A model generated the notes under the pieces. It did no database searches. It was not told the origin of the DNA and saw only the letters and a program-made list of their open reading frames with translations. This document shows positions 381 to 63,475 of a DNA stretch of 64,000 nucleotides, piece by piece (within the stretch, counting starts at the first letter, position 1; each line of letters begins with the position of its first letter). The translations under genes were made by a program, and so were the position numbers. The DNA comes from Gonocerus acuteangulatus (taxonomy: Eukaryota; Arthropoda; Insecta; Hemiptera; Coreidae): positions 88,562,785 through 88,626,784 of the forward strand of contig OX328126.1 in assembly GCA_946811695.1 (NCBI GenBank). Direction: 5' to 3'.

Positions 381-408
<28 letters not shown>

Positions 409-63475: not shown

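Follow-up and report, generated by a model that had tools for sequence, protein, structure and literature searches.

Three SINE families of Gonocerus acuteangulatus with different heads share core and tail modules and are probably copied by RNase H-bearing LINEs

SINEs with a 5S rRNA-derived head that share body and tail with tRNA-headed SINEs are already known. In Helicoverpa armigera, the 5S-headed HaSE3 was described as sharing its body and 3′ tail with the tRNA-headed HaSE1; the tail matches that of the resident RTE-type LINE HaRTE1.1, and template switching was proposed by the authors (PMC3272025). Among lepidopteran elements, PxSE4 and PxSE5 were described as 5S- and tRNA-headed SINEs with shared bodies, and the tRNA-headed ObSE2 as highly identical to the 5S-headed PxSE4 (PMC8010984). 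The same source gives the conserved-domain superfamilies as CORE, V, Deu, Ceph, Nin, Inv, Pln, Snail and Meta (PMC8010984), and central SINE domains have been described as conserved across metazoan evolution (PMC6887750). In stringent SINE/LINE pairs both partners end in a common 3′ stem-loop, with variable letters in the stem and conserved letters in the loop (PMC3747384). Chimeric retrogenes formed by template jumps were described in a fungus (PMC2104539).

The SINEs reported here, from the genome of Gonocerus acuteangulatus, resemble HaSE1/HaSE3 in that 5S- and tRNA-headed elements share modules in one genome and end in a LINE-like tail; they differ in that the body and tail of HaSE3 were both described as coming from one tRNA-headed SINE, whereas here the core is shared with a Leu-headed family and the tail with a Glu-headed one, and in that the HaSE partner is of RTE type, whereas here the tail is built like those of RNase H-bearing LINEs (PMC3272025). 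They are likened to the lepidopteran PxSE SINEs by description only, and an I-type tail is not among the features described there (PMC8010984). As in the conserved-domain superfamilies, different heads and tails stand round one central domain (PMC8010984); the core found here comes from one genome and is about 30 nt long, whereas the known domains, compared by description, are conserved across metazoans (PMC6887750). Variable stems and a conserved loop in a SINE and LINE 3′ stem-loop are also features of the stringent pairs, but the partners described there belong mainly to the CR1 and RTE clades, and here to an RNase H group that looks I-type (PMC3747384). What is added to the known arrangement is an unnamed core, compared with CORE, V, Deu, Ceph and Nin by description only, and an I-type tail. 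In this one genome it is possible to follow three head types along with one core and one LINE-type tail, and as old and young copies and long-frame LINEs are present too, head exchange, core loss and the requirement for the hairpin become directly testable.

The window is the whole 64-kb stretch of DNA that was analysed, and positions without a locus name refer to it. It contained four 5S-headed copies, three Glu-type copies plus one such head with another body, nine fuller Leu-headed copies, three Leu fragments (one of them split by a LINE) and one Leu remnant, and tail-only pieces. The 5S-headed copy at 23974..24124 (+) has its head at 23974-24083 (Rfam 5S, 49.8 bits), its core at about 24086-24116 and a tail cut short, GGCGTTAAACAGG and then poly-A; a 13-bp target-site duplication (TSD), CTTCTAGATTAGT, flanks both ends of the composite. 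The copy at 410..524 (−) is internally deleted, with the 5S head, the 3′ end of the core and the full tail; the Rfam 5S match at 409-524 (−) scored 31.2 bits, under the gathering score of 38. Two copies are 5′ truncated, one at 31938..32056 (−; E 7e-34) with the 3′ part of 5S, core and full tail, the other at 10914..10998 (+; E 3.5e-16) with the 5S end, core and full tail. No convincing TSD was found in the examined flanks of the copies at 410..524, 31938..32056 and 10914..10998. The 5S-like copies of the original prediction, at 23974, 381 and 31932, are all present, the one at 381 being the internally deleted copy and the one at 31932 lacking most of the head.

Glu/Asp-headed SINEs were located by profile match at 29497..29662 (+), with a 14-bp TSD and a poly-A that starts within the tail hairpin, and at 54801..54915 (−), 5′ truncated and internally deleted with a full tail. 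A third copy, at 25975..26145 (−), has a full tail and a 13-bp TSD and belongs to a young family, with 95-100% identity in the 40 genome matches scored (40 of 513 candidates). At 55021..55109 (−; E 1.4e-11) a Glu/Asp-like head is followed by a different body, a hairpin-like AATTGG...CCAATT sequence that replaces the body of the Glu SINE.

Leu-headed SINEs were recognized by profile match at 55291..55502 (−), with core and CGTCC/GGACG-type tail, 33456..33662 (+), with a 9-bp TSD (GTTTTGAAG), 6097..6303 (+), 1018..1218 (−), 10204..10412 (−), 63056..63256 (+), 9049..9258 (+; diverged), and 24588..24779 (−) and 54402..54583 (−), both with a disrupted core. The tail of the copy at 31778..31936 (+; E 7.6e-20) meets that of the 5S copy at 31938, the fragment at 12519..12611 (−; profile match) stops before the core, and the copy at 1993..2929 (+; profile match) is split into 1993-2082 and 2819-2929 by a C-terminal LINE fragment, LINE A (2083..2818, +; tail hairpin at about 2762-2800; TSD 17/18). 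LINE A, whose protein matches the LINE protein P0001, is nested in this SINE and is therefore the younger of the two copies. LINE B (32301..33400, −; tail hairpin at 32301-32334) is an RNase H domain fragment (32807-33400; Pfam RNase_H 1.5e-14, 49% identity to P0001).

Sequence sharing between the families was seen within the window itself. The string AAAAGGGTGGCAACCTRTAG, allowing up to 3 mismatches, had 12 matches and none in 100 shuffles; GGCGYTAATRGCC, with up to 2 mismatches, had 11 against a shuffle mean of 1.45 (largest 5), and GATGCGCCGTT, with up to 1 mismatch, 4 against a mean of 0.20 (largest 2). In profile searches of the window, the best cross-family matches had E 1.3e-5 (5S model, Leu copy), 1.6e-4 (Leu model, 5S copy) and 1e-4 (Glu model, 5S tail), compared with best values of 0.065 (Leu), 0.16 (Glu) and 0.27 (5S) in 20 resampled windows. 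The 5S model reached the Glu tails at E 0.2-0.27, in the window alone no better than chance by the same 20 resampled windows; the sharing of the 5S and Glu tail was settled by the genome consensus alignment, which exceeds shuffles. The three proposed SINE families, whose heads differ while their bodies overlap, are thus all in the window, with shared strings above chance, and the objection that the cross-family alignments might not exceed chance fails against both resampled windows and shuffles.

Across the genome (1.106 Gb, 135 contigs), the 5S, Glu/Asp and Leu families occur as dispersed SINEs in high copy number. Forty matches per family were scored, from 4772 (5S), 513 (Glu) and 6367 (Leu) first-look candidates, and after exclusion of 12, 10 and 10 of these places, 28 5S-, 30 Glu/Asp- and 30 Leu-headed copies were aligned to obtain consensus sequences, which lean toward young copies and toward the query because the best-scoring copies were chosen. 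The consensus sequences are 169-199 nt long, within the size of SINEs (<500 bp), and the elements are dispersed and have no coding capacity. Mean identity of these best-scoring copies to the consensus was 96.7% (5S), 98.4% (Glu) and 92.8% (Leu, the most diverged family), and the whole consensus was spanned by 27/28, 30/30 and 29/30 copies, respectively. The 3′ ends are A-rich, with long poly-A in the 5S and Glu consensus and (TAAA)n in the Leu consensus. TSDs of variable length were present; those of 9 bp or more enclosed the entire unit in 22/28 5S copies (1/216 with swapped flanks), in 15/30 Glu copies (2/232) and in 9/30 Leu copies (12/232), the weakest signal of the three.

These duplications bear on the origin of the shared blocks, which might be explained by nested insertion of one SINE in another instead of shared ancestry. 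Nesting does occur in the window, where LINE A lies in a Leu SINE and a 5S copy adjoins a Leu copy at 31936/31938. Against it, the same junctions recur in the consensus of 28 5S and 30 Leu copies and one TSD surrounds each composite in most 5S copies (the 22 of 28 given above), so that nesting, which the original prediction had named as its refutation, was rejected as the origin of the shared blocks, the TSDs flanking whole composites, and is extremely improbable.

The core, TAKAAAAGGGTGGYAACCTRTAGATARCCCG, is about 30 nt long and common to the 5S and Leu families in the genome consensus. The 5S consensus passes from the 5S 3′ end into TATAAAAGGGTGGCAACCTGTAGATAGCCCG and from there directly into GGCGCTAATGGCCAAGATGTAGATGCGCCGTTAAA. 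The first of these blocks aligns with the Leu core at the cost of one 2-nt gap and 4 substitutions; the second is near-identical to the 35-nt Glu tail (2 changes in 28); for both alignments p was 0.00025, the lowest value reachable with 4000 shuffles. The common core of the 5S and Leu families and the common tail of the 5S and Glu families, both noticed at first in the single window, are in this way confirmed genome-wide.

In the young Glu family, CACCCTGGATGT is joined directly to CGGCGC, the core being absent; the Glu copies of the window are also without it, and a core within the young Glu body was not supported by alignment (p 0.05-0.12). Core matches (E up to 3) numbered 91 in 318 kb of loci, mostly chosen via these SINEs and overlapping the window, so that a few were counted twice; 47 lay under Leu heads, 34 under 5S heads and 2 under Glu heads, and the remaining 8 had no head assigned by the script, two of them (L028 and L025) looking Glu-type by eye. 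The core-like matches in old Glu-type copies had E 0.037 in L074 and 0.19 in L021, whose heads were found by the script (E 8.4e-6 and 4.2e-4), and E 0.012 in L028 and 0.038 in L025, Glu-type by eye only. Each of the four is weak and all are at a consistent position, between body and tail. The presence of the core in old Glu-type copies is moderately supported by these matches, and because of their consistent place the young Glu family may have lost its core. No core match was found in a scan of viral contigs, nor any core or tail match in the genome contigs scanned beside them. In the published text searched, the core and tail strings led only to off-subject papers, which is weak evidence since such sequences are mostly given in figures and supplements.

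All three heads are derived from RNAs of the RNA polymerase III type, the 5S head as identified by Rfam and the two others by a weaker resemblance to tRNA. Rfam tRNA-clan scores were about 15 bits, ARAGORN (bacterial setting) found no tRNA for the SINE heads, and the “Glu” head was about equally close to Asp and Glu when compared with six tRNA sequences. The heads proposed as tRNA Glu-like and tRNA Leu/Ser-like are accordingly retained as tRNA-like, and their isotypes (Glu/Asp, Leu) as leads only. We infer that the heads, and not the cores or tails, were the exchanged part. A TTTT run about 80 nt from the start was seen in 7 of the 9 Leu copies and both of the Glu copies that were scanned; it could stop RNA polymerase III early, and in the Leu copies it would argue for poor read-through by this polymerase. 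Two further arrangements were noted by eye. At L081 395-431 (+), a Leu head is represented by its initial ~28 nt, which are fused directly to a GCGC-type tail, possibly by a template jump or an internal deletion. At L015 222-258 (−), a Glu-type body end and tail follow an upstream stretch with the B-box-like GAGTTCAAATCCC, possibly a candidate fourth head.

The tail forms a stem-loop with a closing stem of 5-6 bp, after which come (T)TAAA and an A-rich end. SINE stems are CGGCGC/GCGCCG and CGTCC/GGACG, and the 5S and Glu tails carry the loop motif ATGRCC, as on the 3′ ends of RNase H-bearing LINEs. With a model of six SINE tails, from which the copies cut inside the hairpin (23974, 29497 and 62862) were left out, the best other match in the window was the end of LINE A (about 2762-2799; E 0.0048), and the tail of LINE B alone gave E 1.1. 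P0001, which has an RNase_H domain and matches both LINE A and LINE B, was scored at 124 genome places of 37807 candidates, with open frames of up to 1281 codons. These LINEs thus have RNase H, a C-terminal zinc-knuckle region (CCHC-like spacing, read by eye) and long open frames, and we take them to be I-type from the domain order.

Twenty LINE 3′ regions, each of 701 bases past the C-terminus, were read from copies that were not all shown intact (frames of 338-1281 codons, stop-free in the matched part) and that were sorted into groups F1 to F4 by matched span and frame length, with no tree. The whole stem-loop was present in 15/20 (F1 6/6, F2 4/5, F3 5/5); in the fifth F2 copy a Glu SINE is inserted before the hairpin position, and of the four F4 copies one shows a hairpin, cut inside, and the other three stretches end before the tail position. 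LINE hairpins carry ATGACCC and GGTTG and are followed by TTTAAA or TAAAAA and an A-rich end. LINE-type stems are re-spelled and still pair (AGACAT/ATGTCT, AGGC/GCCT, AGGCAG/TTGCCT and AGGTG/CACCT). The arms were placed by rule because MAFFT, when LINE and SINE tails are aligned together, misplaces the F1 3′ arm; the rule gave no outer stem in two LINE-like tails, L022 and L056.

For seven tails combined, the folding-energy z was -4.41 and the closing-stem p 0.0023, figures that overstate the support because the tails are related; taken singly, the closing stem was significant only in the Glu and 5S consensus (p 0.033 and 0.049). The covariation score of the six window SINE tails, reached by 39/500 shuffles, is only suggestive. 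A descriptor scan found the hairpin at 8 window sites, where the null gave 0.6 on average and 3 at most, and counts little because the descriptor was written after the tails had been seen.

By letters, LINE and SINE tails are weakly related. The SINE tail model gave E 0.14-0.21 on nine F2/F3 copies and no match on the F1 tails, and a model of three LINE-type tails scored 9.9, 8.4 and 5.6 bits on SINE tails, the best scores in 20 resampled windows being 9.9 and 9.0. No clear tail was found at six LINE-like C-terminal fragments met by chance in the flanks (L017, L025, L035, L044, L055 and L083; best L055, E 1.5), several of which are cut, interrupted or of another LINE type. In viral contigs, two tail matches were taken as chance from their non-SINE surroundings, a LINE-style tail scan gave no match, and no relative of P0001 was confirmed. 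The search of LINE 3′ ends suggested with the original prediction returned the hairpin design in 15/20 regions, the exact GGCGC...GCGCC tail of the SINEs being on no LINE end read. The single partner LINE that had been proposed is replaced by a wider set: the evidence supports a tail design found in RNase H-bearing LINEs, of which F1 to F3 were read through to their ends and F4 partly, and does not single out one particular LINE.

As the 5S and Glu tails share structure and loop motif with these abundant LINE 3′ ends, they are most likely bound at the hairpin by the LINE's reverse transcriptase. Alternatively, a poly(A)-recognising LINE of another type might copy the SINEs, the likeness to the I-type hairpin being old or coincidental. 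Such a LINE would fit the long poly-A ends of the 5S and Glu families, the weak agreement of LINE and SINE tails by letters alone, and the copies at 23974 and 29497, whose poly-A begins in the hairpin and whose TSDs of 13-14 bp are nevertheless good, so that a full hairpin is not strictly needed. It is opposed by alignments that reach the consensus 3′ end, including the hairpin, in 27/28 5S and 30/30 Glu copies (counts from best-scoring copies, the Glu query containing the tail and the 5S query hardly any of it), by the recurrence of the hairpin on LINE groups with re-spelled stems, and by tail-only insertions that begin at the hairpin base. On this evidence copying through poly(A) recognition is improbable.

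The Leu family is the less certain member. Its tail has the same geometry, CGTCC...GGACG and then TTAAA, without ATGRCC and with little sequence identity to the others, so that the near-identical tail is shared between 5S and Glu and is not letter-for-letter that of Leu, just as the window Glu copies lack the core. A separate partner LINE for the Leu family, with only the core shared and the tail unrelated to that of 5S and Glu, is therefore a serious alternative, although not the favoured one. It accords with the differing tail letters, the (TAAA)n end and a p of only 0.02-0.04 against the 5S tail without GTTAAA; the shared geometry and a p of 0.0005 once GTTAAA is included are against it. 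Pair counts in eight Leu tails, from which copies 24660, 54466, 12519 and 31778 were left out, say nothing on this point, 152/500 shuffles reaching the score.

Very probably, then, the three families belong to a single SINE superfamily whose heads can be exchanged and whose copying is done by I-type LINEs through recognition of the hairpin. Its unit would consist of a pol III-type head, the ~30-nt core (present in the 5S and Leu families) and the 3′ tail hairpin. The LINE reverse transcriptase would bind the tail hairpin, target-primed reverse transcription would begin at the A-rich end, and a new head would arise when the enzyme jumps from a core-and-tail template to another small RNA. The order of these events is likewise proposed, as is the disappearance of the core in the young Glu family.

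Tails without a SINE body were also found. Thirty-one tail sites, 20 in flanks and 11 in the window, were examined singly, and the script found no SINE body upstream in 17, with LINE A, LINE B and some old or odd pieces among them. Of these 17, four start 0-2 nt from the stem, have clear TSDs and measure ~35 nt plus poly-A. In the window, the insertion at 26272..26308 (−) consists of hairpin and poly-A with a 13-bp TSD, AATAAGTAGTATA, and ends exactly at the stem; in the flanks, insertions lie at L053 325 (−; 14-bp TSD), L021 2897 (+; 10-bp exact TSD) and L048 1803 (−; 10-bp exact TSD). At L104 131-167 (−), a tail with 13 extra bases 5′ of the hairpin and the TSD AATAGGTGATAAT is inserted within a LINE copy, and four sister copies (L102, L103, L105 and L106) have the empty site. 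No convincing TSD was found at the remaining body-less tails; the copy at 63263..63295 (−), with stem AGGTG/CACCT and E 5.1 against the SINE tail model, has only a weak, A/T-rich 9-bp repeat.

The sample of tail-only units is small and was drawn from sequence beside young SINEs and LINEs. Ordinary 5′ truncation that tends to stop at the stem may account for these units, or they may form a separate class. Tentatively, and with the balance against it, the tail hairpin itself may be a minimal retroposon, a ~35-nt stem-loop with (T)TAAA and poly-A that inserts alone. If so, the hairpin would be sufficient for LINE-driven integration, the base of the stem would mark a fixed site of stopping or cleavage, and the smallest template that RNase H-type LINEs accept would be given by the tail-only insertions. 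It would also offer a simple route to new SINEs, in which any small RNA joined to the hairpin becomes mobile. No title on very short hairpin-tail insertions was found among the publications searched, which is no proof of their absence from the literature.

Other features of the window were recorded. Repeats at 15000, 38000 and some other places were examined and seem unrelated to the SINE families. A weak match to a type-P1 twister ribozyme lies at 40421-40475 (−; 37.2 bits, gathering score 67.2, E 0.00018), and its fold is no better than that of shuffles. Exon-like frames at 17189, 21892, 24355 and 36730 (+) look like a host gene that we presume to be of Sec63 type; the exon at 24355 matched Brr2-type helicase chains (E 2.6e-6), and Brr2-type helicases share a Sec63-like domain. 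A stop-free mariner transposase frame of 345 codons occupies 52682-53716 (+), and its relatives in other assemblies are 94-97% identical.
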